This document shows positions 7,540 through 31,120 of a stretch of 64,000 nucleotides of DNA, in pieces (the first letter of the stretch is position 1; each line of letters opens with the position of its first letter). Both the position numbers and the translations under genes were made by a program. The DNA comes from Dyella ginsengisoli LA-4 (GTDB lineage Bacteria; Pseudomonadota; Gammaproteobacteria; Xanthomonadales; Rhodanobacteraceae): assembly GCF_000334915.1 (NCBI RefSeq), contig NZ_AMSF01000036.1, forward strand, positions 1-64,000, in the 5' to 3' direction. The notes under the pieces were generated by a model, which worked only from the letters and a program-made list of their open reading frames with translations, was not told the DNA's origin and searched no databases.

Positions 7540-9603
7540 TTACTCGGGCGCCTCGCCATGAAAATGCCGCTTGAACGCCACCTCTCCCGTCACCGGCTCC
7601 CCCAACTCCCGCGCATACCGATGCCCCGCATACACCGCGTGGGCGATCAGCCCCGGTGCGTCGGAGTCGCCGATGTTGCGCACGCTCTGGATGCCGGCGT
7701 CGGTCCAGTCGGCTTCGCGTTCGAGGAGTTGCTGGTAGAGCGCGTCATTCGGCAGGCGGGCGGTGACGGTGAGCACGGCGTCGGCGGACGGCGTTTGCGG
7801 GCGGTCTTCCCAGGCGTGGTCGAGGGTGAGCGTGTCGCCGTCGTAGCGGGCGACGGTGTGGGAGACGATGACTTCGATGCCGAGCTTGGCCAGGCGCTTG
7901 CGGATGTGGCGGTAGTCGAGTGTGTTCTGGCTCCACGGGGCGAGGGTGTCTTCCGGGGTGACGTAGACCACTTCACAGCCGTGGGCGTGCAGGTGTTCGG
8001 CGGCGATGCTGGCGTAGTAGAAGCCGTCGTCGTCTAGCACGGCGACGCGGCCGGCGGGGAGGCGGCCGTCCATCAGGTCGTCCAGCGTGTAGACCTTCGG
8101 GTTGTCGGCGAAGCCGGGAATCGCTGCGCCGTGGCTGCGGCCGTAGCCGTCGCGGCGCCAGTGGCAACCGGTGGCGAGCACCACGTGTTCGGCGCCGAAG
8201 TCGAGCACGTCCTGCGCGCTGAGCGCGGAGTCGAGGTAGACCGACACGTTGCTGAGCTTGTTGATCTGGCCGAGGCGCCAGTCGCGCACGCGCGCCCATT
8301 CGGCCAGCCCGGGCAGGCGCGCTTCGCGGGTGACGCGGCCACCGAGTTCCTTGCGAGCTTCGGCCAGGCTCACCTCGTAGCCGCGTTGGCCCAGCGCGCG
8401 GGCCGCCTCCAGCCCGGCGGGGCCGCCGCCGACCACCAGCACGCGGCCGGGCTTGCTCGCCGGGGCGATGCGCTCGGGGTGCCAGTCCTTGCGCCACTCC
8501 TCGCCCATGGTGGGGTTCTGCGTGCAGCGGATCGGCGAGATGGTCATGTCGCCGGAGACGCAGATGTTGCAGCCGATGCATTCGCGGATGTCGTCCACGC
8601 GGCCCTGTTCCACCTTGGCCGGCAGGAACGGGTCGGCGATGGACGGGCGCGCGGCGCCGATCAGGTCGAGCACGCCGCGCTTGATCTGCGACACCATGGT
8701 GTCCGGCGAGGTGAAGCGGCCCACGCCCACCACCGGCTTGCTGGTGACCTGTTTGACGAAGGCGACAAACGGCTCCTGCGCGCCTTCGGCGGCGAAGCGG
8801 GAGGGCACCGAATCGTTGTACCAGGCAGCCACGTTCACGTCCCACAGGTCGGGCAGCTCGGCGAGCGTCGCCACGATGTCCTTGGCCTCGCTCAGCTCCA
8901 CGCCGCCGCCACCGAGCAGTTCCTCGGTGGCGAAGCGCAGCGCCACGCCGCAGCGGTGGCCGATGGCTTCCTTGGTGTCTTCCAGCACCTCGCGCAGCAG
9001 GCGCATGCGGTTCTCCAGCGAGCCGCCGTAGGCGTCAGTGCGCTGGTTGCGGCGGCGCTGCAGGAAGTGCATCGGCAGCGAGAGATCGTGCGCGGCATAG
9101 ACGTAGACGATGTCCATGCCGGCGCGCATCGCACGCACGGCGGCTTCGCGATGCCAGCGGCGGTACTCGGCGATGTCTCTCAGCGACATCGCGCGTGCCT
9201 GCGAGGGGTAGCCGTATTTGCTGGGCTGGTGCGAGGGGCCGATCAACACCTCGCGCGAGTACAGGTTCGACGCGGTGGGGCCGTTGTGCGACAGCTCCAC
9301 CGCGGCCAGCGCGCCGTGCGCGTGCACCTTGTCGCACATCAGTGCGAGGGCGGGGATGTCGCGGTCGTCCCACAGTCGCGCCTCGACGTAGGGCGTGAGG
9401 TCGCCGCTGGGGTGGATCTCGCACTCCTCGGTGGACACCACCGCCCAGCCGCCCTCGGCCTTCACCTCGCGCATGGCCGCGTGGGCCAGCGGCATGGCGT
9501 GGCCCATGCCGTTGCAGTGGGGAACCTGGAAGAAGCGGTTCTTCGCGGTGACCGGGCCGATCTGTACCGGGGTGAACAGGATGTCGTAGCGGGGGTCGCG
9601 CAT
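7540..9603 (-). CDS. TMADH-family FMN/4Fe-4S oxidoreductase (dimethylglycine/N-methylproline demethylase-like)
   Basis: A 687-residue flavoprotein. It has an N-terminal old-yellow-enzyme barrel (1-330), a 4Fe-4S motif with Cys342, 345, 348 and 360 (C-x2-C-x2-C-x11-C), and a C-terminal nucleotide-binding part beginning VLVVGGGPAGLEAARAL near 390. Length and layout equal trimethylamine dehydrogenase and the DgcA/HpbA demethylases, which oxidatively remove N-methyl groups as formaldehyde. It is last in a same-strand group with a permease, an amidohydrolase and a Rieske oxygenase, so an N-methylated substrate is likely. 2,4-Dienoyl-CoA reductase is an alternative, but the neighbours argue against it. 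Confidence 0.82.
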   Translation of the reverse strand: MRDPRYDILFTPVQIGPVTAKNRFFQVPHCNGMGHAMPLAHAAMREVKAEGGWAVVSTEECEIHPSGDLTPYVEARLWDDRDIPALALMCDKVHAHGALAAVELSHNGPTASNLYSREVLIGPSHQPSKYGYPSQARAMSLRDIAEYRRWHREAAVRAMRAGMDIVYVYAAHDLSLPMHFLQRRRNQRTDAYGGSLENRMRLLREVLEDTKEAIGHRCGVALRFATEELLGGGGVELSEAKDIVATLAELPDLWDVNVAAWYNDSVPSRFAAEGAQEPFVAFVKQVTSKPVVGVGRFTSPDTMVSQIKRGVLDLIGAARPSIADPFLPAKVEQGRVDDIRECIGCNICVSGDMTISPIRCTQNPTMGEEWRKDWHPERIAPASKPGRVLVVGGGPAGLEAARALGQRGYEVSLAEARKELGGRVTREARLPGLAEWARVRDWRLGQINKLSNVSVYLDSALSAQDVLDFGAEHVVLATGCHWRRDGYGRSHGAAIPGFADNPKVYTLDDLMDGRLPAGRVAVLDDDGFYYASIAAEHLHAHGCEVVYVTPEDTLAPWSQNTLDYRHIRKRLAKLGIEVIVSHTVARYDGDTLTLDHAWEDRPQTPSADAVLTVTARLPNDALYQQLLEREADWTDAGIQSVRNIGDSDAPGLIAHAVYAGHRYARELGEPVTGEVAFKRHFHGEAPE

Positions 9604-9625
9604 GGCTACCTCGAATCAACCCACC

Positions 9626-9702
9626 GTCATCCCAGCGAATGCTGGGATCCAGTGACTTTTTGAAGAACGAAGGCGCTGGACCCCAGCGTTCGCTGGGGTG
9701 AC
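9626..9702. repeat. Inverted repeat between oxidoreductase and permease genes
   Basis: Two 27-base arms (9626-9652 and 9676-9702) match inversely except for three bases. Each arm is itself a palindrome built on CCCAGCGAAnGCTGGG. This ATCCCAGC..GCTGGGAT repeat type is widespread between genes in Proteobacteria. It could also act as a transcript 3' end stabiliser or attenuator between the permease and the flavoprotein. Confidence 0.8.
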
Positions 9703-9716
9703 GGGAAGGTGGGAGT

Positions 9717-11027
9717 TCATGGCGTAGGCACCTTGACCGCCTGCGGCTTGCGGCGCAGGCGCATGAAGGCGTACAGCGGCAGGCCGACGGCGATCAGGCC
9801 CAGGCCGAGCACCAGCGGCTGATGGCCGATGCCGATGAAGGCGAACACCACGAACAGCACGCCGAGCACGGCCGGGACCAGCGCCGCACCGCGCACCGCG
9901 CCGCGCCGCCACAGCACGATCAGCGCCAGCGAGCAGCACAGGTACAGCGGCAGGTTGGCGGCGGTGACCACGCGGGTGATGAAGGTGAACGCGGCCACCA
10001 GCGACTTGCTGTAGCTCATCCACACCATCACCGAGCCCAGCAGGCCGGTGACCACCAGCGCCACCGCGGGCGCGCCGCGGCGGTTGTCGCGCGAGAACAC
10101 CGACGGCAGCACGCCGTTGTTGGCCATGGTGCGGGTGAGCTCGCCCACCAGCAGGGTCCAGCCGTTGAGTGCGCCCAGTCCGCTGACCACCACGAACAGC
10201 GACAGCCAGCGGCCGAAGCCGGCACCGCCGAAGCGGTCCATCAGCAGCGCGAACGGCGCACCGGCATTGCCCAGCTCCTGCTGCGGGATCAGCAGCAGCG
10301 GCACGGTGGAGACGATGATGTAGATCACCGCGGTGAGCACGGTGCCGGCCATGGTGGCGCGCGGGATGGTGCGACCGGGGTTGTCCACGCGGCCGGCGGG
10401 CACGCTGGCCGCCTCGATGCCGAGCATGGCGAACAGCGCGATGGTGCCGGCGGCCATGGTGTCCTTCAGGCTCACCGGGGTGGCCGGCAGATGCGCGGTG
10501 TAGCTGCCGGGCGAATGCAGCAGCACCCAGGCGCCGAGCAGCGCGATGGCGGCCATCGGCAGCAGCTTCAGCGCGGTGGTGACGATCTGCACGCCGCCAC
10601 CGGCGCGCACGCCCATCAGGTTGATGCCGACGAACACCCACAGCAGGCCCAGCGCGAACACCGCCGGGTGGATCGCCTGCAGCGCCGGGAACACCACCGT
10701 GATGTAGCCCACCGCGCCGGTGGCCAGCGCCGCGTTGGTGAGCCACAGCGAAACCCAGTACGCCCACAGCGCCATGTACGCCGGCAGGTCGCCCAGGGTG
10801 CGGCGGATGTAGCCGTAGGGACCGTCGGCGTCGGGCAGCAGGTGCGCCAGGTGCGAGAACACGCGGGCCAGCGCAAGGCAGCCGAGCAGGGTGGCGGTCC
10901 AGCCGATCAGCGCGTTGAAGCCGTAGGGCGCAAGCGAGGCGGGCAGCAGGAAGATGCCCATGCCGATCACGTTGCCCACCACCAGCGCGGTGCAGGTCCA
11001 GAAGCCGATCTTGGTGCCGTGGGTCAT
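9717..11027 (-). CDS. APC-superfamily amino acid permease
   Basis: A 436-residue polytopic membrane protein with about 12 helices. The start MTHGTKIGFWTCTALVVGNV and the motif GNVIGMGIFLLPASLAPYG mark the helix 1 signature GxGI of the APC family, in the branch containing AdiC/PotE-type transporters. Substrate is probably an amino acid, amine or related compound; exchange versus proton symport cannot be told. It lies between the flavoprotein gene and the amidohydrolase gene on the same strand, separated from both by repeat-bearing spacers. Confidence 0.88.
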   Translation of the reverse strand: MTHGTKIGFWTCTALVVGNVIGMGIFLLPASLAPYGFNALIGWTATLLGCLALARVFSHLAHLLPDADGPYGYIRRTLGDLPAYMALWAYWVSLWLTNAALATGAVGYITVVFPALQAIHPAVFALGLLWVFVGINLMGVRAGGGVQIVTTALKLLPMAAIALLGAWVLLHSPGSYTAHLPATPVSLKDTMAAGTIALFAMLGIEAASVPAGRVDNPGRTIPRATMAGTVLTAVIYIIVSTVPLLLIPQQELGNAGAPFALLMDRFGGAGFGRWLSLFVVVSGLGALNGWTLLVGELTRTMANNGVLPSVFSRDNRRGAPAVALVVTGLLGSVMVWMSYSKSLVAAFTFITRVVTAANLPLYLCCSLALIVLWRRGAVRGAALVPAVLGVLFVVFAFIGIGHQPLVLGLGLIAVGLPLYAFMRLRRKPQAVKVPTP

Positions 11028-11293: not shown

Positions 11294-12637
11294 TCACTCC
11301 AGCGCCACCGGCTGCCCGGCCTTGATCACGCCGCGGATCTGCCGCAGGCAATCGACGTCATGCAGCGGGTCGCAGCCGACGGCGACCAGGTCGGCGGCCT
11401 TGCCGGGGGCGATCGAGCCGAGTTCCTTTTCCTTGCCGAGCAGGCGGGCGGCGTCGATGGTGGCCGAGCGGATCGCCTGCAGCGGCGTCATGCCCCAGCG
11501 CACCATGTAGGCGAACTGGCGCGCGTTCTGGCCGTGCGGGTAGACGCCGGCATCGGTGCCGAAGGCGAGGTGCACGCCAGCCTTCACCGCCTTGCGGAAG
11601 CCTTCGCGCTGGGCCAGCGTGGTTTCCTCGTTCTTGCGCAGGATCTCCGGCGACCAGTGGTCGCGGGTGCCGATTTCCTCGATGTAGTCGCCGTCGTAGA
11701 TGTCGGCGACCAGCCAGGTGCCGTGCTTGACCAGCAGCGCGATGCCCTCGTCGTCGATCAGCGAGCCGTGCTCGATCGAGCGCACGCCGGCGCGGATCGC
11801 GCGCTTGATGCCCTCGGCGCCGTGCGCGTGGGCGGCGACGAACTTGCCGCGCCTGGCTGCCTCGACCACGGCGGCATGGATCTCCGCCTCGGTGAATTCC
11901 GGCTTGCCCGGCTCGGTGCCGTTGGCCAGCACGGCGCCGGTGGCGATCACCTTGATCAGGTCGGCACCGTGGTCGAGGATCTTGTCGACGTTGTGGCGCA
12001 CCTGGTCCACGCCCCTGGACACGCCCTGCCGGAACTCCGGCGGCACCACGGTGCCGGGCGGCAGGCCGGTAATCTCGCCGCCGCCGCCGGGCGCGGTGAT
12101 GTAGGCGCCGGCAACGAACATGCGCGGGCCGGGAATCTCGCCGGCGTTGATCGCGTCGCGCAGGGCGATGTCGGCGAAGCCGCGGTACACGCCGACGTCG
12201 CGCACGGTGGTGAAGCCGGCCTGCAGCGTCTTGCGCGCGTTCATCGCGCCGATGAACGCCTGTTGCGCGGGGCTGATCTTCAGCGGCGCAGCGATGTCGG
12301 CGGTTTCCGCCTCCTCGGAGATGTGCGTGTGCATGTCCATCAGGCCGGGGACCACGGTCCAGGCCGTCCAGTCGAGCACGCGCGCACCCTTCGCTGCATC
12401 GGCGGACCACGGCTGCACCGAGACCACCTTGCCGTCGGCGAGCGTCACCGCCTGGTCGGTGAGCATCCTGCCGCTGTCGACGTCGAGCAGGTGGCCGGCA
12501 TGCACCACGGTGCGCTCGGCGGCCTGGGAGTATGCAGCGTGGGCCGGTGCGGCGAGGGCCGCGGCGAGTGCAAGCAGCAGGGTAGGCAGGGCAGGCAGGG
12601 CAGGCAGGGCAGGCAGGGCAGGCAGGGCAGATTTCAT
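11294..12637 (-). CDS. Exported amidohydrolase-family dipeptidase (Xaa-Pro / Xaa-Arg type)
   Basis: A 447-residue metal hydrolase. It has a signal peptide with an ALP triplet repeat (residues 4-18), then HTH at 103-105, a Lys in LIKVIATGAV, and His in AAHAHGAEG and SIEHGSLID, followed by FGTDAGVYPHG. These are all ligands of the binuclear amidohydrolase site. The sequence resembles the Sgx9260/Cc2672 group, which cleaves carboxyl-terminal residues from dipeptides. Its ATG overlaps the stop of the Rieske gene (ATGA, 12634-12637), so the two are translationally coupled. Imidazolonepropionase-like activity is the other option. Confidence 0.82.
   Translation of the reverse strand: MKSALPALPALPALPALPTLLLALAAALAAPAHAAYSQAAERTVVHAGHLLDVDSGRMLTDQAVTLADGKVVSVQPWSADAAKGARVLDWTAWTVVPGLMDMHTHISEEAETADIAAPLKISPAQQAFIGAMNARKTLQAGFTTVRDVGVYRGFADIALRDAINAGEIPGPRMFVAGAYITAPGGGGEITGLPPGTVVPPEFRQGVSRGVDQVRHNVDKILDHGADLIKVIATGAVLANGTEPGKPEFTEAEIHAAVVEAARRGKFVAAHAHGAEGIKRAIRAGVRSIEHGSLIDDEGIALLVKHGTWLVADIYDGDYIEEIGTRDHWSPEILRKNEETTLAQREGFRKAVKAGVHLAFGTDAGVYPHGQNARQFAYMVRWGMTPLQAIRSATIDAARLLGKEKELGSIAPGKAADLVAVGCDPLHDVDCLRQIRGVIKAGQPVALE
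12584..12628. repeat. Five perfect 9-base tandem repeats in a signal peptide
   Basis: The unit AGGCAGGGC occurs five times without a mismatch (12584-12628). On the coding (minus) strand it reads as repeated Ala-Leu-Pro within the signal peptide of the amidohydrolase. Because the unit is a multiple of three, copy-number change would lengthen or shorten the signal peptide without a frameshift. Confidence 0.95.
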
Positions 12638-13701
12638 GCGTGCTCTCCCGCGGCGGCGTAGGCCGCGCGCAGCTGGTTGTGGAAATGCCAGACGCCGCTT
12701 TCGCGCTTCGGGCACAGCCGGCCGGCTTCGTAGGTGCCGGAGGTCAGGCCGCGCTGCACGGCGACGCAGATGTCGATGTCTTCCTGCTGCACCTCGTCGC
12801 TGAATTCCTGGTCGGCGGCGATGCGCGCCTGCGCGGCGTCGTCCTGCGCGTAGTAGTAGTCGAACTCCACCCGGCAGCGGTCCGGTCCCAGCGGCACGAT
12901 GCGGTTGGTCTGCATGCGGCCGGGCATGATGTTGAGCATCACGTTGGGATAGACGAAGTAGTAGAACGCCTCGCCGTCGCCGTAGATCGCGGTGCTGTTG
13001 CGTAGCGGCGAGGACTGCAGCGAATACCAGTCGAACAGCTCGGTGTCGTAGGCGCGGTAGTCCAGTACCTTCGACAGGCCCGGGTGCACGTGGGGCAGGT
13101 GGTAGCCCTCGAGGAAGTTGTCGACGTAGACCTTCCAGTTGCAGTCGATCTCGTAGCTGTCGCGGCGCAGGTAGCGCATGGCCGAAAGATCGATCGGCGC
13201 GATGCGTTCGGCGATGCCGCCGTAGACCCCGCCGAACGGCGGCACGGCCTCGTCCAGCGCCACGAACACCAGGCCCTGCCATTCGTGCACGCGGATCGGC
13301 GGCAGGCGGATGTCGGACACGTCGAAGTCGGCCGCGCCCTGCATCTCCGGCGCGCTGCGCAGCTGGCCTTCCAGCGTGTAGGTCCAGCCGTGGTACTTGC
13401 AGTGCAGGGCACGCGCGCCCTTGCCGTTGCACAGCGCCAGCGGGCCGGCGCGGTGGCGGCAGACGTTGACGAAGCCGCGCAGCACGCCGTCCTGCCCGCG
13501 CACCACGATCACCGGCACGTGGCCGACCTGTTCCACCACGTGGTCGCCCGGCTCGGCGAGCTGGCCCTGGTGCGCCACCAGCTGCCAGCTGCGTGCGAAT
13601 ACCGCACGGTGTTCCATCGCCAGCATCGCCTCGCCGACGTAGTAGCGGGCGGGCAGGGCGGTGGCGTGGTCGAGGCCGGGGTGGGAGGTTTCAGCTTGCA
13701 T
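12634..13701 (-). CDS. Rieske non-heme iron oxygenase, alpha subunit
   Basis: A 355-residue oxygenase. The Rieske centre is Cys81-x-His83 and Cys101-x2-His104. The mononuclear iron site lies in DNFLEGYHLPHVH (Asp194, His201, His206). It is of the choline monooxygenase / GbcA / stachydrine demethylase type, whose members hydroxylate N-methyl groups, but it is shorter than the usual 400-430 residues. No ferredoxin reductase gene is adjacent. The start MQAETSHPGLDH at 13701 is chosen because upstream sequence overlaps the divergent gene's promoter region. The stop overlaps the next gene. Confidence 0.85.
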   Translation of the reverse strand: MQAETSHPGLDHATALPARYYVGEAMLAMEHRAVFARSWQLVAHQGQLAEPGDHVVEQVGHVPVIVVRGQDGVLRGFVNVCRHRAGPLALCNGKGARALHCKYHGWTYTLEGQLRSAPEMQGAADFDVSDIRLPPIRVHEWQGLVFVALDEAVPPFGGVYGGIAERIAPIDLSAMRYLRRDSYEIDCNWKVYVDNFLEGYHLPHVHPGLSKVLDYRAYDTELFDWYSLQSSPLRNSTAIYGDGEAFYYFVYPNVMLNIMPGRMQTNRIVPLGPDRCRVEFDYYYAQDDAAQARIAADQEFSDEVQQEDIDICVAVQRGLTSGTYEAGRLCPKRESGVWHFHNQLRAAYAAAGEHA

Positions 13702-13762: not shown

Positions 13763-14920
13763 ATGTTCCGTTTCAAGCTGACGCTGGCGCTGTGTGCGCT
13801 GGCCGGACTGGCACAGGCGGCCGGTCCCCGCGCACGCGACCTGGGCATTCCGTTCGACGGCACCCCCGGGCCGCTCAATGCCATCACCGATGTCGCCGGC
13901 GTCACCGTGGGCCAGGTCACCTTGATCCGCGACCTCCCCGACGGTCACAAGGTGCGCACTGGCGTGACAGCGATCCTGCCACGCGGCAGGGCCAGCTACG
14001 AGATCCCCGCGTTCGGCGGCTGGTTCGCGCTCAACGGCAATGGCGAAATGACGGGCACCACCTGGCTGGAGGAGTCCGGCCAGTTGGAGGGGCCGGTGAT
14101 GCTCACCAACACCCACAGCGTGGGCGTGGTGCGCGACGCGGTGATTGCCGAGCGCGTGCATGCCGGCGGCGCGGACGCCTCGGGCTACTGGTGGTCGCTG
14201 CCGGTGGTGGCCGAGACCTGGGACGGCGAGCTCAACGACATCAACGGGTTCCACGTGCACGCCGCGGACGCCGCGCAGGCACTGCATGAAGCGAAGGGCG
14301 GGCCGGTCGCCGAGGGCAACGTCGGCGGCGGCACCGGCATGATCTGCCACGAGTTCAAATGCGGCATCGGCACCGCCTCGCGGCGCGTGCACATCGGCGA
14401 GCGCGACTACACCCTGGGCGTGCTGGTGCAGGCCAACTACGGGCTGCGCGACAGCCTGCGCATCGCCGGCGTGCCGGTGGGCCAGTACCTGCGCGAGGAC
14501 CGCCTGTACAGCGCGACCAACCCGGCGGCGGTGGACACCGGCTCGATCATCATCGTGGTGGCGACCGACGCGCCGCTGCTGCCGCACCAGCTGAAGCGCA
14601 TCGCCCGGCGCGCCGGCATGGGGCTGGCGCGGATGGGCAGCTACTCCGGCAACGGCTCGGGCGACATCTTCGTGGCGTTCTCCACCGCCAACGCCGATGC
14701 GCTGCACGACCGGCCGCTGCAGCAGGCCAGCTTCATCGGCAACGACCACATCGATCCGCTGTTCGAGGCCACCGCGCAGGCGGCCGAGGAAGCCATCGTC
14801 AACGCGATGATCGCGGCGAAGGACATGTGCGGCGAGGGCGGTCACTGTGCCAAGGCGATCCCCCATGCGGAGCTGGTCGCGCTGCTCAAGCGCTTCGGTC
14901 GCTACCAGCCGCCGCACTGA
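13763..14920 (+). CDS. P1-family DmpA/BapA-type aminopeptidase, exported
   Basis: A 385-residue N-terminal-nucleophile peptidase with a signal peptide (MFRFKLTLALCALAGLAQAA) and a GGGGGAGG ribosome site. Conserved blocks include NAITDVAGVTVG, EGNVGGGTGM and VLVQANYGLRD. The predicted self-cleavage site is Gly260-Ser261 in DTGSIIIVVATDAPL, with Ser261 becoming the nucleophile of the small subunit. Family members are L-aminopeptidase/D-Ala-amidases (DmpA) or beta-peptidyl aminopeptidases (BapA) that release N-terminal beta-amino acids, including beta-Ala. It is transcribed away from the Rieske operon across only 61 bases. Confidence 0.88.
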   Translation: MFRFKLTLALCALAGLAQAAGPRARDLGIPFDGTPGPLNAITDVAGVTVGQVTLIRDLPDGHKVRTGVTAILPRGRASYEIPAFGGWFALNGNGEMTGTTWLEESGQLEGPVMLTNTHSVGVVRDAVIAERVHAGGADASGYWWSLPVVAETWDGELNDINGFHVHAADAAQALHEAKGGPVAEGNVGGGTGMICHEFKCGIGTASRRVHIGERDYTLGVLVQANYGLRDSLRIAGVPVGQYLREDRLYSATNPAAVDTGSIIIVVATDAPLLPHQLKRIARRAGMGLARMGSYSGNGSGDIFVAFSTANADALHDRPLQQASFIGNDHIDPLFEATAQAAEEAIVNAMIAAKDMCGEGGHCAKAIPHAELVALLKRFGRYQPPH

Positions 14921-18422: not shown

Positions 18423-18438
18423 GGCAGAACCTTTCGTG

Positions 18439-20078: not shown

Positions 20079-20088
20079 CCGTGTGCGC

Positions 20089-21672: not shown

Positions 21673-21682
21673 GGAGGACCCC

Positions 21683-23022: not shown

Positions 23023-23039
23023 TGTTCGATAATCGAACA
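23023..23039. promoter_or_regulatory. Probable IclR-family operator between divergent operons
   Basis: TGTTCGATAATCGAACA is a perfect 17-base palindrome 14 bases upstream of the aminotransferase start and 49 upstream of the IclR-type regulator. A second weaker TTCG..CGAA pair follows at about 23043-23055. It closely resembles the GTTCGATAATCGCAC site I recall for the beta-ketoadipate regulator PcaR, also an IclR protein. The neighbouring regulator is the obvious ligand-responsive binder (inference). Confidence 0.7.
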
Positions 23040-23088
23040 AGAATTCGTATTGCGAACTCATTGGAATGCTTCTACGCTCGGCCTGTCA

Positions 23089-23925
23089 ATGGACCCAAGC
23101 GAGACGATGGCCTCCCAACCCTTCGAGGAAAGCCCCGACTACGTGCAGTCGCTGGCGCGCGGCCTGCAGGTGCTGCGCGCGTTCGATCACGAGATGCCCA
23201 GCCCGAGCCTGTCGCAGGTGGCCGAACGCATCGGGCTGTCGCGCGCGGTGGCGCGCCGGCTGCTGCTGACGCTGCAGCATCTCGGTTACGTCGGCAGTCG
23301 CGGGCGCAGCTTCTTCCTGACCCCGCGCGTGCTGGAGCTGGGCTACAGCTACCTTACCTCGCTCGACCTCACCGAACTGGCCCAGCAGAGCCTGGAGCAG
23401 CTGTCGCACAGCGTCGGCGAGAGCTGCTCGATGGCGGTGCTCGACGGCCAGGACATCGTCTACGTGCTGCGCGTGCCGGTGCGCCGCGTGATGAGCGTGG
23501 CGCTGGGCGTGGGCGCGCGCCTGCCGGCCTTCGCCACCTCGATGGGCCGGGCGATCCTGGCCGACCTGGACGACGACGCGCTGGCCGCGTGGATGGACGG
23601 CCAGACCTTCCGCGCCTACACGCCGCAGACGCTGCACACCGTCAGTGCGCTGAAGGCCGAACTGGCCCGCGTGCGCAAGCAGGGCTATGCGCTGGTGTCG
23701 CGCGAGCTGGAGCACGGGCTGTGCTCGATCGCGGTGCCGATCCGTGCCGCCGACGGCAGCACGGTGGCGGCGCTGAACGTCGGCATGCCGTACAGCGAGG
23801 ACGCGCCCCGGCGCGCGCTGAAGGAGATCCTGCCGGCGCTGCGCGAGACGCAGGCGGCGGTGCAGCAGGCGATCGCGCGCGGCGGCTGGCTGCCGCAGCA
23901 GGCGATCCGGGGGGCGTATGCGTAA
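23089..23925 (+). CDS. IclR-family transcriptional regulator (PcaR/PobR-like)
   Basis: A 278-residue regulator. The winged helix-turn-helix is at about 25-85 (PSLSQVAERIGLSRAVARRL), followed by the IclR effector domain with VGESCSMAVLDGQDIVYVLR and RELEHGLCSIAVPI. The sequence resembles PcaR/PcaU/PobR regulators of the beta-ketoadipate pathway. ATG 23089 is chosen over an upstream TTG; ATG 23107 is also possible. It overlaps the thiolase gene by eight bases and so is co-transcribed with it. It probably controls both divergent operons through the palindrome at 23023-23039. Confidence 0.9.
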   Translation: MDPSETMASQPFEESPDYVQSLARGLQVLRAFDHEMPSPSLSQVAERIGLSRAVARRLLLTLQHLGYVGSRGRSFFLTPRVLELGYSYLTSLDLTELAQQSLEQLSHSVGESCSMAVLDGQDIVYVLRVPVRRVMSVALGVGARLPAFATSMGRAILADLDDDALAAWMDGQTFRAYTPQTLHTVSALKAELARVRKQGYALVSRELEHGLCSIAVPIRAADGSTVAALNVGMPYSEDAPRRALKEILPALRETQAAVQQAIARGGWLPQQAIRGAYA

Positions 23926-25114
23926 CGCCTGGCTGGTCGACGCGACGCGTACCCCGTTCGGCCGCCTCGGTGGCGCGCTGGCCGGCGTGCGCACCGACGA
24001 CCTCGCGGCGCTGCCGATCCGCGCCCTGCTGGCGCGGCACCCGCAGCTGGATCCGGCCGCGATCGACGAGGTGATCCTCGGTTGTGCCAACCAGGCCGGC
24101 GAAGACAACCGCAACGTGGCGCGCATGGCCGCGCTGCTGTCCGGGCTGCCGCCGGAGGTGCCCGGCGTGACGGTCAACCGGCTGTGCGCCTCGGGCCTGG
24201 AGGCGGTGGGGCAGGCGGCCCGCGCGATCGCCTGCGGCGAGGCCGAACTGGTGATCGCCGGCGGCGTGGAGAGCATGACCCGCGCGCCCTACGTCATGGC
24301 CAAGGCGGACACCGCCTTCGCCCGCAACCAGCAACTGGAGGACACCGTGCTGGGCTGGCGGCTGGTCAACCCGGCGATGCGCGCCGGCTACGGCGTGGAC
24401 TCGATGACGCAGACCGCGGAGAACCTCGCCCGCGAACACGGCATCGATCGCGCCAGCCAGGATGCGTATGCGCTGCGCAGCCAGGCGCGCACGGCGCACG
24501 CGCAGGCCGAGGGCTGGCTGGCCGAGGAGATCGTGCCGGTGCCGGTGGGCAAGGACGGCGAGCTGGCCGCGGTGGACGAGCATCCGCGTCCGGCCACGAC
24601 CGCCGGGCAACTGGACAAGCTCAAGCCCCTGCTGGGGCCGCACACCAGCATTACCGCCGGCAACGCCTCCGGCCTCAACGACGGCGCCGCCGCCCTGCTG
24701 CTGGCGTCCGATACGGCGATCGAACGGTTCGGATTGACGCCGCTGGCGCGCGTCGCCGGCATGGCCTCGGCCGGCGTGGCGCCGCGCACCATGGGCATCG
24801 GTCCGGTGCCGGCGATCCGCAAGCTGCTGGCGCGCAGCGGTCAGCGCCTGGGCGACTTCGACCGCGTCGAGATCAACGAGGCGTTCGCCGCGCAGGTGCT
24901 GGCCTGCACCCGCGCGCTCGGCCTCGCCGACGACGCGGAACACGTCAACGCCCAGGGCGGCGCCATCGCGCTGGGTCATCCACTCGGCGCCAGCGGCGCC
25001 CGGCTGGCGATGACGGCAGCGTTCGCCCTGCGCCGGCACCGTCAGCAACGCGCCCTGGTCAGCCTCTGCGTGGGCGTCGGCCAGGGCCTCGCCCTCATCC
25101 TGGAGCGCCCATGA
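23918..25114 (+). CDS. Beta-ketothiolase (3-oxoadipyl-CoA / acetyl-CoA acyltransferase, PcaF-like)
   Basis: A 398-residue thiolase with Cys90 ([12 protein letters not shown]), His354 ([10 protein letters not shown]) and Cys384 (SLCVGVGQG) as the catalytic set. Length and the linkage with an IclR regulator and a CatIJ-type CoA-transferase point to the PcaF branch, cleaving a 3-oxoacyl-CoA to acetyl-CoA plus a shortened acyl-CoA. It overlaps the regulator upstream and, by ATGA, the peptidase downstream. No ring-cleavage or muconate genes lie nearby, so the 3-oxoacyl-CoA may come from a non-aromatic source. Confidence 0.9.
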
Positions 25115-26511
25115 ACCGAATCCTCCGTCGTGCCTTTCCTCTCGCCCTGGGCCTGGTGTTGCCGCTGACCGCACAGGCCGCCGACCCGGTTCCGGCAGGT
25201 GAGCGTGCGCTGGCGCACGACCTGCTGGTGCAGATGATCGGCACCGACACCACCTCCGAGCACGGCAGTACCACCGTGCTGGCCGAGGCGCTGGCGCAGC
25301 GTTTCCTGAAGGCCGGGTTTCCGGCGGCGGACGTGCAGGTGGTGGGCGACGATCCGAAGCGACGCAACCTGGTGGTGCGCCTGCGCGGGCAGGGCCAGCG
25401 CGCGCCGGTGCTGCTGCTGGCGCACCTGGACGTGGTCGAGGCGCTGCCGCAGGACTGGCACTTCCCGCCGTTCAAGCTGACCGAGAAAGACGGCTACTAC
25501 TACGGCCGCGGCACGATGGACATCAAGGGCGCCGGTGCCGGCCTGGTCACCACCCTGCTGCGCTTCCACCGGGAGGGTTTCAAGCCGAAGGGCGACTACA
25601 TCCTGGCGCTCACCGCCGGTGAGGAGGACGGCAAGTCCAACGGCATCCAGTGGTTGCTGGCGCACCGGCCGGAACTGATCCGCTCGCGGTATTCGATCAA
25701 CGTCGACGGCGGCGGCCCGGAGATCCGCAACGGCCGGCCCGAGGTCGTCGCGGTGGAAACCGCCGAGAAGGTCTACGCCAGCTACACCCTGACCGTGCGC
25801 AACCCCGGCGGGCACAGCTCGCTGCCGACCCCGGACAACGCGATCTACCGGCTGGCCGCCGGACTGATGCGGCTGTCCAAGCTCGAATTCCCGCTGCATA
25901 CCAACTCGGCCACGCGCGGCTACTACGCGCAGCTGGCCACGCTCTATACCGGCTCGACCGCGGCCGACATGCGGGCGGTTGCCCACGATCCGTCCGATCC
26001 GGCGGCGATGCGGCGGCTGGCCGCGTCCAGCCCTTACAACAACGCCCACCTGCGCACGACCTGCGTGCCGACCCTGCTGACCGGCGGCGATGCGGAGAAC
26101 GCGTTGCCGCAGATGGCCCGGGCCACGGTGAACTGCCGCATCCTGCCGGACGAGCCGCCGGCGCAGGTCGAGGCGGCCATCAGGCGGGCGCTGGACGACC
26201 CGCAGATCGCCGTGGCGCCGGTGGCACCGGCTCCGGCCAGCCCGCCCAGTCCGATCGACCCGGCGCTGTTCGCGCAGGTCGCACGGACAGCAAAGGCGGT
26301 CTGGGGGCACGCCATGCCGGTGTCGCCGTACATGTCCGCCGGCGCCTCGGACAGCGTGTTCCTGCGGGCGGCCGGGATGCCGTCCTACGTGTTCAACGGC
26401 ATCCCCTACGACGTGGACGACGACCGCTCGCACGGGCAGGACGAACGCATTCTGGTGACGTCCTACTACCAGTCGCTCGATTTCGACTATAGATTGCTTA
26501 AAAACTTGTAA
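25111..26511 (+). CDS. Exported M20/M28-type metallopeptidase
   Basis: A 466-residue zinc peptidase with signal peptide (LRRAFPLALGLVLPLTAQA). Metal-site residues are His105/Asp107 (LAHLDVVE), Asp137 (GRGTMDIKG) and Glu171-Glu172 (AGEEDGKS). A lid domain around TLTVRNPGGHSSLPTPDNAIY gives the M20 layout of carboxypeptidase G2, PepV and related enzymes. Likely work is removal of C-terminal residues or dipeptide cleavage in the periplasm. Its ATG overlaps the thiolase stop (ATGA), placing it in the IclR-led operon. Confidence 0.9.
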   Translation: MNRILRRAFPLALGLVLPLTAQAADPVPAGERALAHDLLVQMIGTDTTSEHGSTTVLAEALAQRFLKAGFPAADVQVVGDDPKRRNLVVRLRGQGQRAPVLLLAHLDVVEALPQDWHFPPFKLTEKDGYYYGRGTMDIKGAGAGLVTTLLRFHREGFKPKGDYILALTAGEEDGKSNGIQWLLAHRPELIRSRYSINVDGGGPEIRNGRPEVVAVETAEKVYASYTLTVRNPGGHSSLPTPDNAIYRLAAGLMRLSKLEFPLHTNSATRGYYAQLATLYTGSTAADMRAVAHDPSDPAAMRRLAASSPYNNAHLRTTCVPTLLTGGDAENALPQMARATVNCRILPDEPPAQVEAAIRRALDDPQIAVAPVAPAPASPPSPIDPALFAQVARTAKAVWGHAMPVSPYMSAGASDSVFLRAAGMPSYVFNGIPYDVDDDRSHGQDERILVTSYYQSLDFDYRLLKNL

Positions 26512-26526: not shown

Positions 26527-26577
26527 ATGTCCCGTGCCATGCCCCTGACGTCCTCCGCATCGTGGTATCTCCGGTGA
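26527..26577 (+). CDS. Possible 16-codon leader peptide before the sulfotransferase gene
   Basis: A short frame MSRAMPLTSSASWYLR follows an AAGGAG site that overlaps the peptidase stop. Its own stop TGA (26575-26577) overlaps a GTG start (26574) in frame with the downstream gene. The large gene has no Shine-Dalgarno of its own, so translation of this mini-ORF may be what delivers ribosomes to it. There is no independent evidence that the peptide matters. Confidence 0.35.
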   Translation: MSRAMPLTSSASWYLR

Positions 26578-28598
26578 CGGCGGCCGCGGCCACAGGCTCG
26601 CTGGAGCAGGCGCTGGCGCACGCCGGGCGCTTGCTGGCCCGCGATCCGGCGATGGCCGAGGCGCAGGCCGGAGAGATCCTCAAGGCCGTGCCGGAGCACC
26701 CGCCCACGCTGCAGCTGCTGGCGGCGGCGCGTGCGGCGCAGGGCAACCTGGCCGGCGCGTTGGCCGTGCTGGAGCCGCTGGCGGCCTCGCAGCCGAAGTG
26801 GGCGGCGGTGCAGTTCGAGCTGGGCCTGGCGTTGAGCCAGGCCGGCCGCCTGGACGAAGCGATCGCCGCGCTGCGCCGTGCAGTGGCTCTGAAACCGGAC
26901 CTGCCGCAGGCCTGGCGCCTGCTGGCCGATCGCCTGCTCGATGCCGGCGACGCGGATGCGGCTGCCGAGGCGTATCTCGGGCACGTGCGGCATGCCGCGA
27001 CCGATCCGCGGCTGATGGCGGCGGGGGCGGCCCTGGCCGACGAGCGCATTCCCGAGGCCGAGGCGATGCTGCGCCAGCACCTGCGCGAGGCGCCCACCGA
27101 CGTGGTGGCGATCCGCATGTTCGCCGAGCTGGCGGCCCGGGTCGGTCGTACCGACGAGGCCCGGCTGCTGCTCGAGCGCTGCCTGGAGCTGGCCCCGGCC
27201 TTCCACGCCGCCCGCCAGAACTACGCGCTGCTGCTGCACCGGGCCAACCTGCCGGAGCAGGCGCTGGTCGAGCTCGAACGCCTGCTTGCCGCCGAGCCGA
27301 ACCATCCGGCACACCGCAACCTCAAGGCCGTGGTGTTGTGCCGCACCGGCGATTACCACACGGCGATCGACCTCTACGCCGGTCTGCTGGCCGAGTATCC
27401 GGACAACGCTCCGGTCTGGATGAGCTACGGCCATGCGCTGAAGACCGCCGGCCTCACCGATCGCGCGATCGAGGCCTACCGGCGGGCGCTGGCGATGACG
27501 CCGTCGTTCGGCGAAGTCTGGTGGAGCCTGGCCAACCTCAAGACCTTCCGCTTCACCGAGGCCGACATGGCAACGATGCGCGCACAGCTCGCGCGCACCG
27601 ACCTGTCCGACGACGACCGCCTGCATCTGGACTTCGCGCTGGGCAAGGCACTGGAGGACGCCGCCGATTACGAGGCATCGTTCCGCCACTACGCCGCGGG
27701 CAACGCCCGCCGTCACGGCCAGCTCCACTACAGCGCCGACGATACGCATGCGCGGGTCGAACACATCGCGAGCCATTACACGCGCGAGTTCTTCGCCGCG
27801 CGCGCCGGCAGCGGAAGCACCGCGCGGGACCCGATCTTCATCGTCGGCCTGCCGCGTTCCGGTTCCACCCTGATCGAGCAGATCCTGTCCAGCCACAGCC
27901 AGGTCGAGGGCACGATGGAGCTGCCGGAGATCACCTCGATCACCCGGCTGCTGCGCGAGCAGTCCGAAGGCGACAGTCCGATGCCGTACCACGACGCGCT
28001 GGCCCGGCTCGACGCCGATGCGCTGCGCGAGCTGGGCGAGCGCTACCTGGCGCACACGCGGATCCAGCGCAAGACCGCGGCGCCGCTGTTCATCGACAAG
28101 ATGCCGAACAATTTCATGCACATCGGGCTGATCCACCTGATGCTGCCCAACGCCATCATCATCGACGCGCGACGGCATCCGATGGCGTGCTGCTTCTCCG
28201 GGTTCAAGCAGCACTTCGCGCGCGGCCAGAGCTTCAGCTACCGGCTCGAGGACCTTGCCCGCTACTACGCCGATTACGTGCGGCTGATGGCGCATTTCGA
28301 CGCCGTGCTGCCGGGCAGGGTGCACCGGGTCATCTACGAGAACATGGTCGAGGACACCGAAGGGGAGGTGCGCCGGTTGCTGGCGCACTGCGGCCTGCCG
28401 TTCGAGGGCGCGTGCCTGCGCTTCTTCGAGAACGAGCGCGCGGTGCGTACCGCCAGCTCCGAGCAGGTGCGCCGGCCGATCTATCGCGAGGGCGTGGACC
28501 AGTGGCGGCACTACGCGCCCTGGCTGGGGCCGCTCGAGCAGGGTTTGGGAGGGGTGCTCCGGGCGTATCCCGGAGTGCCGGATCAAGAGGGAGCGTAA
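26562..28598 (+). CDS. TPR-repeat sulfotransferase-family protein
   Basis: A 678-residue protein. The N-terminal half (about 10-360) is TPR repeats (AGRLDEAIAALRRAVALKP, LTDRAIEAYRRALAMTPSF). The C-terminal half is a sulfotransferase domain with the PAPS-binding loop IVGLPRSGSTLIEQIL near 425-440 and a later RRHPMACCFSGFKQHFARG. No signal peptide is seen. The start is GTG at 26562 or, more likely, GTG at 26574, which overlaps the leader stop. Such proteins often sit beside TonB receptors in Xanthomonadales and Caulobacterales. The acceptor is unknown. Confidence 0.85.
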   Translation: MVSPVTAAAATGSLEQALAHAGRLLARDPAMAEAQAGEILKAVPEHPPTLQLLAAARAAQGNLAGALAVLEPLAASQPKWAAVQFELGLALSQAGRLDEAIAALRRAVALKPDLPQAWRLLADRLLDAGDADAAAEAYLGHVRHAATDPRLMAAGAALADERIPEAEAMLRQHLREAPTDVVAIRMFAELAARVGRTDEARLLLERCLELAPAFHAARQNYALLLHRANLPEQALVELERLLAAEPNHPAHRNLKAVVLCRTGDYHTAIDLYAGLLAEYPDNAPVWMSYGHALKTAGLTDRAIEAYRRALAMTPSFGEVWWSLANLKTFRFTEADMATMRAQLARTDLSDDDRLHLDFALGKALEDAADYEASFRHYAAGNARRHGQLHYSADDTHARVEHIASHYTREFFAARAGSGSTARDPIFIVGLPRSGSTLIEQILSSHSQVEGTMELPEITSITRLLREQSEGDSPMPYHDALARLDADALRELGERYLAHTRIQRKTAAPLFIDKMPNNFMHIGLIHLMLPNAIIIDARRHPMACCFSGFKQHFARGQSFSYRLEDLARYYADYVRLMAHFDAVLPGRVHRVIYENMVEDTEGEVRRLLAHCGLPFEGACLRFFENERAVRTASSEQVRRPIYREGVDQWRHYAPWLGPLEQGLGGVLRAYPGVPDQEGA

Positions 28599-28642
28599 TC
28601 AAGGGCCGTTTGGGGATTTGTCTCTTTTTGGGAGGGGAACCG

Positions 28643-31120
28643 ATGCATCGACACCGAAATACACCAGCCTCCGGGGCGGCGCGCAGGCGCCTGTCCCGCA
28701 TGCCGTTGGCCGCGGCCATCTGCCTTGCCATCGCCGCACCCGCGTTTGGCCAGGATGCAGGCACGCAGGCAACGGCCACTCCACCGAAAGACCAGAAGGT
28801 GGCCGAGCTGAGCACCGTCACCGTGACAGCGCAGAAGCGCACGGAGAACCTGCAGAAGGTGCCGATCAGCATCCAGGTGCTGGGTACCGAAAAGATCGAG
28901 CAGCTGCACATCAGCAGCTTCGACGATTACGTGAAGTACCTGCCGAGCGTGTCCTACCAGAGCGCCGCGCCGGGCTTCTCGGAGATCTACATGCGCGGCA
29001 TCGCCAGCGGCGGTGACGGCAACCACTCCGGCTCACGGCCCAGTGTCGGCGTGTACCTGGACGAGCAGCCCGTCACCACCGTGACCGGTCCGCTCGACAT
29101 CCACATGTACGACATTGCCCGAGTCGAGGTGCTGGCCGGCCCGCAGGGCTCCCTCTACGGCGCCAGCGCCCAGTCCGGTGCCCTGCGCATCATCACCAAC
29201 AAGCCCGACCCGCAGGGCTTCGCGGCCAGCTACACCGCGGGCGTCGACACGGTGGCCAACGGCGGCATCGGCAACCTGGCCGAAGGCATGCTCAACGTGC
29301 CGATCTCCAAGAATGCCGCGATCCGCCTGGTCGGCTGGCACGAACGCGACGCGGGCTACGTCGACAACATCCCCGGCACGCGCACCTATCCGAGCTGGGG
29401 CGGCACGGTCAGCAACACCTCCTCGTGCACGCCGAGCAGCCTGATGGTGTGCACGCACGCCGCCAAGAACCACTATAACGACAACACCACCAACGGTGGA
29501 CGCGCGGCGCTGCGGGTCAACCTCAACGACGACTGGTCGATCGACGGCACCGTCATGGGCCAGAAGACCACCGCCAACGGCAACATGGCCAGCGACACCG
29601 CGCTCGGCGATCTGGCGATCTCGCATTTCTACCCCGAGTGGCAGACCGACCGCTGGTGGCAGGCGGCGATGACGGTGCAGGGCAAGATCGGCAATTTCGA
29701 CCTGACCTATGCCTATGCGCACCTCAAGCGCAACCAGGAAGAGCACAACGACTACAGCGACTACTCGTTCTGGTACGACACGCTGGCCGGCTACGGCACC
29801 TACATCTACGACAACAGCGGAGCGCTGATCAATCCGTCGCAGTACATCATCGGCAAGGACCACTACACCATGGACAGCCACGAGCTGCGCCTGGCCTCGC
29901 CGAAGGACAGTCGCCTGCGTGCGGTCGGTGGCCTGTTCTGGGAAAAGTCGGTGCACGACATCGAACAGCGCTACATGATCAACGGCCTGTCCGATGCGCT
30001 GACGGTGCCGGGCTGGCCGAACACCATCTGGCTGACCGAGCAGGTGCGTACCGACAAGGACGAGGCGGTGTTCGGCGAGCTGTCCTACGACATCATCCCC
30101 GACACGCTGACCGCGACCGTCGGCGGGCGCTACTTCCGCGCCGACAACAGCCTGGGCGGCTTCTACGGCTTCAGCTCCGGCTTCTCGCCGGGTTCGAGCT
30201 ACGGCGAGGCGGGTTGCATCTCGTCCGCGCCGTTCCGCGGTGCGCCATGCCTGGACTTCAACAAGAACGTCAAGGAGACCGGCTCGCTCGGCAAGGTCAA
30301 CCTGACCTGGAACATCTCGCCGACCAAGATGGTCTACGCCACCCGTTCGGAAGGCTATCGTCCCGGCGGCATCAATCGCCGCGGCTCGCTGCCGCCGTAC
30401 AAGTCGGATTACCTCACCAACTACGAGCTGGGCTGGAAGACCACCTGGCTCAACAACCGGCTGTCGTTCAACGGCTCGGTATTCCAGGAGGACTGGAAGG
30501 ACTTCCAGTTCAGCATCCTCGGCGCCAACGGCCTGACCGAGATCCGCAACGCCAACCAGGCCCAGGTCCGAGGCATGGAGACGGAGCTGAACTGGGCGGC
30601 TACCTACAACCTGCAGCTGAGCGGTGGCGTGGCGTTCTACGACGCCAAGCTCACGGCGAACTACTGCGGTTATACCGATGCCAACGGCAAGCCGGTGACC
30701 GACTGCGCCACGCCGGAAGCTCCGAAGGGCAGCCAGTTGCCGGTCACCCCGAAGTTCAAGGGCAACCTGGTCGCCCGATACACCTGGGACGTCGGCAACA
30801 ACGAGGCCTACCTGCAGGGAGCCGTGGTGCACGTGGGCAAGCGCCGGTCGGATCTGCGCACGCTCGAGAACAGCCTGGTCGGCGACATGCCGGCCTACAC
30901 CACGCTGGACCTCTCGGCCGGCTACAACTGGGCGAGCTTCTCGGTGAACGTGTACGTAAACAACGTGTTCGACAAGCGTGCCGCGTTGTACAAGTACACC
31001 GAGTGCGCCGAATCGGTGTGCGCTGCGCACGGCGTGGTGCCGCAGTATCCGAACGGCCAGGTCTATACGGTGACCAACCAGCCACGGACGATCGGCGTGC
31101 GTTTCACCCAGGATTTCTGA
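28643..31120 (+). CDS. TonB-dependent outer-membrane receptor
   Basis: An 825-residue receptor with a long signal peptide (RMPLAAAICLAIAAPAFGQ), a TonB-box-like STVTVTAQKR, a plug domain (about 65-180: RVEVLAGPQGSLYGASAQSG) and a 22-strand barrel ending in the aromatic residue of VRFTQDF. GGGAGGGG precedes the ATG at 28643. It belongs to the broad IroN/FyuA/CirA-like group used also for non-iron substrates. Last gene of the IclR-led operon, so it probably imports the compound that the peptidases and aminotransferases degrade. Confidence 0.92.
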   Translation: MHRHRNTPASGAARRRLSRMPLAAAICLAIAAPAFGQDAGTQATATPPKDQKVAELSTVTVTAQKRTENLQKVPISIQVLGTEKIEQLHISSFDDYVKYLPSVSYQSAAPGFSEIYMRGIASGGDGNHSGSRPSVGVYLDEQPVTTVTGPLDIHMYDIARVEVLAGPQGSLYGASAQSGALRIITNKPDPQGFAASYTAGVDTVANGGIGNLAEGMLNVPISKNAAIRLVGWHERDAGYVDNIPGTRTYPSWGGTVSNTSSCTPSSLMVCTHAAKNHYNDNTTNGGRAALRVNLNDDWSIDGTVMGQKTTANGNMASDTALGDLAISHFYPEWQTDRWWQAAMTVQGKIGNFDLTYAYAHLKRNQEEHNDYSDYSFWYDTLAGYGTYIYDNSGALINPSQYIIGKDHYTMDSHELRLASPKDSRLRAVGGLFWEKSVHDIEQRYMINGLSDALTVPGWPNTIWLTEQVRTDKDEAVFGELSYDIIPDTLTATVGGRYFRADNSLGGFYGFSSGFSPGSSYGEAGCISSAPFRGAPCLDFNKNVKETGSLGKVNLTWNISPTKMVYATRSEGYRPGGINRRGSLPPYKSDYLTNYELGWKTTWLNNRLSFNGSVFQEDWKDFQFSILGANGLTEIRNANQAQVRGMETELNWAATYNLQLSGGVAFYDAKLTANYCGYTDANGKPVTDCATPEAPKGSQLPVTPKFKGNLVARYTWDVGNNEAYLQGAVVHVGKRRSDLRTLENSLVGDMPAYTTLDLSAGYNWASFSVNVYVNNVFDKRAALYKYTECAESVCAAHGVVPQYPNGQVYTVTNQPRTIGVRFTQDF

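Follow-up and report, generated by a model that had tools for sequence, protein, structure and literature searches.

Layout and conservation of the locus

The stretch of DNA analysed here comprises the first 64,000 nucleotides of contig NZ_AMSF01000036.1 of Dyella ginsengisoli LA-4 (hereafter the window), whose draft genome (99 contigs, 4.55 Mb) is rated 100% complete. Between positions 7540 and 31120 it carries a gene island. The heart of this island is a five-gene operon on the minus strand (17103-23008), encoding the class-III aminotransferase AT2, an aldehyde dehydrogenase (ALDH) of the pyrroline-5-carboxylate dehydrogenase (P5CDH) kind, the CoA-transferase subunits CoaA and CoaB, and a second class-III aminotransferase, AT1, together with a divergent IclR-family regulator and the thiolase PcaF (23089-25114). 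In our reading, held with slightly better than even confidence, this core would be an inducible catabolic pathway in which 3-oxoadipate is made from an amino acid instead of from aromatics. The original prediction, made from the sequence alone, had described the region as a catabolic island for N-methylated or peptide-bound amino compounds. All genes it named were confirmed by Pfam and NCBIfam profiles and by start calls, and all the families it listed are present within the 23.6 kb (Table 1); the IclR regulator and a TPR-sulfotransferase were not named there.

Leftward from 23008, the operon genes AT2, ALDH, CoaA, CoaB, and AT1 are separated by 10 bp, 10 bp, a 4-bp overlap and 16 bp, respectively, and are followed by an S9 peptidase gene. 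Rightward from 23089, the genes for IclR, PcaF and an M20 peptidase overlap by 8 and 4 bp and are followed by those of the TPR-sulfotransferase and a TonB-dependent receptor. Left of S9 lie an S58 peptidase gene on the plus strand, then the Rieske oxygenase and amidohydrolase genes (4-bp overlap), an APC permease gene and a flavoprotein gene.

For a comparative study, GTDB genome contigs were scanned with a four-sequence ALDH alignment, which returned 408 relatives, and the best 80 loci were analysed. Presence was called by per-gene identity thresholds, and neighbours were called by codon usage. Contigs often end early, such that 39 of the 80 loci exceed 20 kb (full-flank loci) and outer genes are under-counted. 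The loci span Lysobacterales, Sphingomonas, Povalibacter, metagenome-assembled genomes (MAGs) of Steroidobacteraceae and Woeseiaceae, Acidobacteria, Holophagaceae/Geothrix, Verrucomicrobia, a Gemmatimonadaceae MAG, and others. D. japonica DSM 16301 is represented by locus L047; for a second strain of this species, UNC79MFTsu3.2, an RB-TnSeq library is listed in PMC12543098. Among the 80 loci, the core genes were found in 70 (AT1), 64 (CoaA), 63 (CoaB), 62 (AT2), 41 (IclR), and 32 (PcaF) cases. The outer genes amount to 31 (S58), 25 (S9), 22 each (TonB receptor, TPR-sulfotransferase, APC) and 19 (Rieske), the rarest being M20 (17), amidohydrolase (10), and flavoprotein (4). All five operon genes occur in 53 loci, and in each of these 53, from Proteobacteria, Acidobacteria and Verrucomicrobia, they share the same order on one strand; 31 loci add both IclR and PcaF.

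At a shorter phylogenetic distance, a genome from another family of the same order (G071) has all genes from the amidohydrolase through the TonB receptor in the same succession, 52-82% identical, and a single extra gene separates S9 from AT1; neither APC nor the flavoprotein was found in the stretches read. In two genomes from another genus of the family (G004 and G029), APC adjoins the flavoprotein and the extra gene is present, while S58 is missing in G004. Given the order in G071 and the fixed five-gene core, the gene order is more than chance, and the search for the gene set in other genomes that the original prediction had suggested thus reveals a unit conserved beyond the genus. The extra gene encodes an exported-looking protein of about 850 aa, which follows AT1 in several loci, occurs in 39 of the 80, and is absent from that place in the window. 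It combines a TolB-like propeller with a C-terminal half of the CehA/McbA metallohydrolase type (228 and 213 bits in the two tested, cut-off 80). The TPR-sulfotransferase and TonB receptor genes each accompany the island in 20 of the 39 full-flank loci.

Among 98 relatives, all of which have some ALDH, seven including the own genome carry one at least 64% identical to that of the window. With the ALDH of the gammaproteobacterial MAG locus L108 as query, a set of 274 genomes sampled evenly across the class gave a single match at E 1e-180, namely the genome of the window. Plasmid and phage searches with the ALDH of the window returned matches below 60% identity only. Pairwise distances of the seven core proteins correlate with r between 0.61 and 0.93 (27 loci plus the window, 28 sequences); for the one pair tested, ALDH and CoaA, the correlation of 0.76 was reached in none of 999 permutations.

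The gap between the divergent core operons holds a candidate operator of the PcaR/PcaU type, composed of GTTCGATAATCGAAC and a second box, TTCGTATTGCGAAC. The first box fits the GTNCG-N5-6-CGNAC group of PMC8222616, whose Table 1 has rows for PcaR and PcaU, and it is one position off the P. putida operator GTTCGATAATCGCAC given in PMC12455658. A stricter PcaU-type pattern has three matches in the window against 0.05 expected, two of them being one palindrome read on both strands, and all are confined to this gap. Across loci, GTNCG-N5-CGNAC was detected in the divergent gap of 32 out of 35, with 37 sites against 0.19 expected from the density elsewhere in the same loci, and the stricter form lies in the gap of 19 of the 35 and nowhere else in 658 kb. 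TTGAC is found in the gap of all 35.

The original prediction had also suggested one inducible system from outer membrane to acyl-CoA. The operator searches do not show such joint regulation of the whole 23.6 kb, since the stricter form lies only between the core operons and the looser PcaU-type pattern, with three matches in the window, is at chance level, with none above chance elsewhere in the island. A looser match before S58 falls inside the Rieske coding sequence; seven of 30 loci match there, all Rieske-bearing, and we see no signal in it. The core on the one hand and the peptidase, TonB and Rieske genes on the other might be separate systems merely co-located in Lysobacterales, as is suggested by the stricter operator form at the core promoter only, by accessory sets that vary between phyla, and by the use of both strands. 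We consider this unlikely: the same long order is found in two families of the order, and neighbours recur in other phyla as well (S58 in 31, APC in 22, and the CehA/McbA-type hydrolase in 39 of the 80 loci).

Table 1. Features of the island in the window, with two examples of the CehA/McbA-type protein from other loci.
Feature	Position	Strand	Evidence
Flavoprotein, TMADH family (FMN/4Fe-4S), nearest histamine dehydrogenase; accessory	7540-9603	-	3k30 783 bits
APC permease, nearest basic amino acid/polyamine antiporter families	9717-11027	-	TIGR00905 262 bits, below cut-off 409
Amidohydrolase dipeptidase, signal-like N-terminus	11294-12637	-	NCBIfam Xaa-Pro; nearest in PDB Arg carboxypeptidase Cc2672
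Rieske oxygenase alpha subunit, nearest carnitine monooxygenase CntA; accessory	12634-13701	-	6y8j 166 bits, with alignment
S58 peptidase, DmpA type (β-/D-aminopeptidase), signal-like N-terminus	13763-14920	+	PF03576 385 bits; 1b65 360 bits
S9 peptidase (Dpp5/acylaminoacyl type), signal-like N-terminus	14932-16968	-	PF00326 156 bits
AT1, class-III aminotransferase, acetylornithine/GABA kind, GTG start	17103-18422	-	NF004426 582 bits, cut-off 552; 7vno 356 bits
CoaB, CoA-transferase beta subunit	18439-19224	-	PF01144
CoaA, CoA-transferase alpha subunit, 3-oxoadipate:succinyl-CoA transferase kind (GctA-like)	19221-20078	-	PF01144
ALDH, P5CDH kind	20089-21672	-	PF00171 423 bits; 1uzb 284 bits, with alignment
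AT2, class-III aminotransferase, first gene of the core operon	21683-23008	-	PF00202 270 bits; 6jix 266 bits
Candidate operator, first box GTTCGATAATCGAAC	23024-23038
Candidate operator, second box TTCGTATTGCGAAC	23044-23057
TTGACA, putative -35-like element of the AT2 operon promoter	23084-23089	-	sequence
IclR-family regulator, PcaR/PcaU/PobR subfamily	23089-23925	+	TIGR02431 311 bits, cut-off 284.75
PcaF, 3-oxoadipyl-CoA thiolase	23918-25114	+	TIGR02430 622 bits, cut-off 597
M20 metallopeptidase, signal-like N-terminus	25111-26511	+	PF01546; NF006596 538 bits, cut-off 349
TPR-sulfotransferase, adjoins TonB receptor; accessory	26562-28598	+	PF13469 173 bits
TonB-dependent receptor; accessory	28643-31120	+	PF07715
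CehA/McbA-type protein, about 850 aa	L119:12519-15104
CehA/McbA-type protein, about 850 aa	L061:12894-15449

The end product of the core

The aminotransferases and the ALDH very probably yield 3-oxoadipate. The original prediction was right in seeing here a catabolic gene set that leads to acyl-CoA from an amino compound, probably a peptide-bound one; it missed that thiolase, CoA-transferase and regulator constitute the lower β-ketoadipate module and thereby name the product. PcaF scores above the cut-off of TIGR02430 and the regulator above that of TIGR02431, and a PcaR/PcaU-type operator occupies the divergent gap. In addition, CoaA, CoaB and PcaF resemble genes of three annotated plasmid loci with pcaF, from Stutzerimonas and Azospirillum (both with ring-cleavage pca genes) and from S. 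meliloti (IclR-CoaA-pcaF). CoaA is 64-68% identical to the CoA transferase A adjoining pcaF, CoaB and PcaF are 55-61% and 59-63% identical to their counterparts, and the regulator is 44-45% identical to the IclR protein in two of the three loci. The same operator type lies upstream of CoaA in all three. CoaA and CoaB gave no NCBIfam model match at E 1e-8, despite PF01144 in both. In a tree, the 14 island PcaF rows group together as a single clade (support 99/97), separate from the three PcaF rows of pca loci; with just these three rows and a very long outgroup branch, the direction of recruitment is not settled.

This kinship of CoaA, CoaB, PcaF and IclR with pca genes could also mean that the locus is a lower β-ketoadipate pathway for aromatics with chance neighbours. 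We rejected this very improbable alternative, as no intradiol dioxygenase was found: in spite of its completeness rating, the own genome gave no match to PF00775 or to PcaH (TIGR02422), which likewise speaks for 3-oxoadipate arising from the neighbouring enzymes. PF00775 was without a match in six of the seven island carriers among the 98 relatives, too, and the AT2-ALDH-AT1 order is fixed over phyla.

A further line of evidence comes from L108, where a BKACE gene stands beside the ALDH, 3 bp before it, in place of CoaAB and PcaF (region 9170-11566). Its product passes the model for 3-oxoadipate:acetyl-CoA acetyltransferase (NF053568, 442 bits, cut-off 350). Neither a CoaAB nor a PcaF homologue was found in the 21.5 kb of this locus, and no CoaA in the genome. 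That the same ALDH and AT1 are accompanied by two unrelated predicted means of processing 3-oxoadipate points strongly to that intermediate.

Lysine degradation via 2-aminoadipate would end in 2-oxoadipate instead. This route would be compatible with two aminotransferases plus a semialdehyde dehydrogenase, and α-lysine is far commoner than β-lysine. However, 2-oxoadipate is no β-keto acid and should serve neither PcaF nor the 3-oxoadipate BKACE found in L108. Furthermore, the ALDH scores 395 bits with the P5CDH model against 251 bits with that of piperideine-6-carboxylate dehydrogenase, both under the cut-off. Thus, we assign this alternative a low probability.

The candidate substrate

With 3-oxoadipate as the predicted product, two class-III aminotransferases and one ALDH upstream of it imply that the substrate is a C6 carboxylate bearing two amino groups that can be removed, with an aldehyde left behind by one of them. 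β-Lysine (3,6-diaminohexanoate) would be the simplest basic substrate for two deaminations and one aldehyde oxidation, and we propose it tentatively, at a little under even confidence. The aldehyde 3-amino-6-oxohexanoate can form a five-membered ring (pyrroline-5-carboxylate with one CH2 inserted before the carboxylate), which suits a P5CDH-like ALDH. Aligned with 1uzb, the ALDH retains the catalytic Cys (codon from 20715) and the P5CDH-like stretches GQKCSA and TGA..G.QPFGG, which we take to serve carboxylate binding. AT2 has taurine:2-oxoglutarate aminotransferase as its nearest solved structure, and AT1 passes a model of the acetylornithine aminotransferase family.

The proposed route would run as follows. 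Peptides would be imported, exported peptidases would release a basic amino acid whose amino groups sit at C3 and C6, and a basic amino acid permease would bring β-lysine into the cell. One class-III aminotransferase would take the terminal amino group, leaving an aldehyde able to close to the P5C-like ring; the P5CDH-like ALDH would oxidise the aldehyde to 3-aminoadipate, and the second aminotransferase would convert this to 3-oxoadipate. CoaAB would then transfer CoA from succinyl-CoA to 3-oxoadipate, and PcaF would split 3-oxoadipyl-CoA into succinyl-CoA and acetyl-CoA. Both divergent operons would be governed via the operator at 23024-23057 by the PcaR/PcaU-type regulator, which presumably senses 3-oxoadipate. 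Gene families, gene order, operator, conservation and the lack of an intradiol dioxygenase are read from the sequence itself, and 3-oxoadipate as product is well supported; β-lysine as substrate, the order of the two transaminations and the roles of the accessory genes are put forward with less assurance. Three permease families occur beside the core, APC in the window, a DcuC/YfcC type in L110 and an NhaC type in L117, and in all three, basic amino acid carriers are the best or second NCBIfam relatives.

Several observations weigh against this scheme, which as a whole is built on sequence comparison. On the product side, PcaF is not diagnostic alone, as it lies over the cut-off in 20 of the 98 relatives, six carriers and 14 non-carriers; PcaF-bearing non-carriers without a PF00775 match include G009, G075, G082, and G096. 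In G071, the island thiolase stays just under the cut-off (591.5 against 597), and one partial PF00775 match of 40 bits exceeds the Pfam cut-off of 27.3. The BKACE gene beside the ALDH is a single case, and none of 30 other BKACE loci have ALDH or aminotransferase neighbours. CoaA is missing in 16 of the 80 loci, with forms including AT2-ALDH, ALDH-AT1, AT2-ALDH-AT1, and ALDH alone, and 12 of these 16 genomes were searched, a CoaA elsewhere being found in one. A BKACE family member occurs in five of 11 CoaA-less genomes searched, L108 included; only that of L108 was scored against the 3-oxoadipate model, the others being 22-32% identical to it where aligned. Another five of the 11 show neither CoaA nor BKACE at the thresholds used, and these may rely on transferases of the ScoAB type, may be incomplete, or may have another use for the ALDH.

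As to the regulator, PcaU responds to protocatechuate. A P. putida PcaR responds to other dicarboxylates (PMC12543098), and hence the subfamily does not fix the effector. On the substrate side, the matches of the permeases to basic carriers are all under the respective cut-offs, and the permease of L117 passes NhaC instead. A homologue of lysine 2,3-aminomutase (LAM; KamA) was found in none of the 80 loci, and of the 14 island genomes searched, several being MAGs, nine have no LAM-family gene. Without a linked aminomutase, peptides or other organisms would have to supply the β-lysine. The own genome has one LAM-family gene, away from the island, and 95 of 98 genomes searched have one over the cut-off; this common gene is presumably EpmB. 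Linkage to KamA was considered as support and rejected, since KamA lies near a 40%-identical ALDH in L014 but is absent from the 80 close loci. In that locus, on a Rhizobium plasmid (L014:3413-15313), a KamA-type radical SAM protein, a GNAT protein, a histone-deacetylase-like protein and a class-III aminotransferase accompany the ALDH, and it could be an acetylated β-lysine route.

Peptidases, accessory genes and known systems

DmpA-type enzymes of family S58 remove, among other residues, N-terminal β-amino acids. The S58 protein of the island is full-length, and the Ser encoded at 14543 follows a Gly, as it does in the alignment with DmpA; we take this Ser to be the autocleavage nucleophile. 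Carriers of S58 at the locus include an Acidobacteria MAG (L111). The exported peptidases, with this DmpA-type β-aminopeptidase recurring across phyla, would free the substrate. The amidohydrolase has the L-Arg carboxypeptidase Cc2672 as its nearest phmmer match and passes the Xaa-Pro dipeptidase model of NCBIfam (517 bits, cut-off 500). ALP tripeptides are repeated in its N-terminus (12560-12637), implying a short tandem DNA repeat.

NylC belongs to the same broad fold group as S58. The peptidase might accordingly be a NylC-like hydrolase in the degradation of 6-aminohexanoate (nylon or caprolactam), from which an aminotransferase and an ALDH would give adipate. This scarcely credible explanation was rejected, since S58 is nearest to DmpA, no chain named NylC appears among its eight PDB matches, and the β-oxidation genes, namely acyl-CoA dehydrogenase, hydratase and hydroxyacyl-CoA dehydrogenase, are not among the identified core genes.

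The original prediction had listed N-demethylation-type enzymes. With N-methylation as the core theme, the Rieske and trimethylamine dehydrogenase (TMADH)-family enzymes would demethylate N-methylated amino compounds or betaines, and the remaining enzymes would burn the skeleton. The family assignment of the flavoprotein holds, while its nearest relative is histamine dehydrogenase (3k30 783 bits, 6de6 747 bits) and not TMADH (574 bits). A Cys (codon from 9516), which presumably binds flavin, and an Asp are common to it and both named histamine dehydrogenases. The Rieske protein is nearest to carnitine monooxygenase, with a Glu (codon from 13110) aligned with that of CntA, which we take to be the bridge position; the GbcA model gives 139 bits, far under its cut-off of 670. 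Apart from the flavoprotein, no reductase family was found among the Pfam matches of the island. In favour of demethylation, L048, L061, L069, and L073 have the flavoprotein together with the core. The last of these, a Gemmatimonadaceae MAG locus (8257-19113), has no AT2 in its stretch and has the flavoprotein in line with ALDH-CoaA-CoaB-AT1, such that it could replace AT2; a dimethylargininase-like gene lies beside IclR (254 bits, cut-off 340), while AT1 is followed by the flavoprotein gene and one for a DAO-GCV_T demethylase-like protein. Against it, the Rieske gene occurs in 17 of the 39 full-flank loci, mostly in Lysobacterales, and the flavoprotein in four, an under-count given its position near or beyond the 10-kb flank, and no homologue of either was found in the available stretches of the full-core Acidobacteria and Verrucomicrobia loci. 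We thus regard N-methylation as an improbable core theme; the two enzymes may open the pathway to amines that are N-methylated or carry other substituents.

A more comprehensive view, which appears doubtful to us as a whole, is that of a complete and widespread pathway feeding β-lysyl peptides into the TCA cycle, with a regulator that aromatic catabolism would have lent to it. It would lead through outer-membrane uptake, a periplasmic β-aminopeptidase and a basic amino acid permease to the core. In Lysobacterales, the Rieske and histamine-dehydrogenase-like enzymes would widen it to N-methylated terminal amines and meet it at the same aldehyde.

In the surroundings of the island, G+C falls to 58% at its left end (6001-8000), where a DUF695 gene and an unknown gene lie. 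To the right, a long open reading frame for an autotransporter-like S8 serine peptidase (32649-36059; EprS model 187 bits, far below the cut-off) overlaps a minus-strand gene for a thiolase of the acetyl-CoA C-acyltransferase kind (31862-33139), and a fused protein with B12-binding, MeaB-like GTPase and acyl-CoA mutase parts (IcmF-like) is encoded at 59768-63487.

The island shares with the lower β-ketoadipate pathway (PcaIJ/CatIJ, PcaF, PcaR; plasmid loci) two CoA-transferase subunits, PcaF and an operator before CoaA, and with the S. meliloti and Stutzerimonas plasmid loci an IclR regulator as well; it differs by two aminotransferases and a P5CDH-like ALDH instead of ring-cleavage genes. An aerobic use of β-lysine is reportedly known from Pseudomonas B4, where oxidation is said to proceed via 6-N-acetyl-β-lysine and 4-acetamidobutyryl-CoA (attributed to Ohsugi et al., 1981). 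Transamination and β-keto thiolysis are common to that route and our proposal, whereas no acetyltransferase or deacetylase family was found in the island, and the terminal amine would become a carboxylate. Lysine fermentation via β-lysine (KamA, KamDE, Kdd, Kce, Kal/Kat) includes the class-III β-aminotransferase Kat (PMC3149608). Its plan from β-lysine to a β-keto acid is similar, but KamA is not at the loci and the other fermentation genes are not among the island families found. Moreover, its product is 3-keto-5-aminohexanoate and not 3-oxoadipate, and a Kce-like cleavage, of the 3-oxoadipate type, occurs in L108 only. The S58 protein agrees with the DmpA/BapA β-aminopeptidases in its Gly-Ser cleavage site and its score to DmpA, with a putative specificity for β-lysyl peptides. 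The flavoprotein matches the histamine dehydrogenase/TMADH family over almost its full length and differs in lying in an amino acid catabolic island.

The part families are known; the novelty would lie in their combination, in which the lower β-ketoadipate module is supplied by a proposed amino acid feeder. We found no literature pairing β-lysine with 3-oxoadipate or ketoadipate, subscription literature being mostly outside the scope of the search. The β-ketoadipate pathway is a textbook route for aromatics, and β-lysine occurs in streptothricin-class antibiotics and on elongation factor P. If the lower half of the pathway is also used for a non-aromatic amino acid across several phyla, the names pcaF, CoA transferase subunit A and IclR may mislead in genomes without ring cleavage. 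The island would then provide a testable gene set for the aerobic use of β-amino acids, β-lysine in particular, and for the natural role of S58 β-aminopeptidases.

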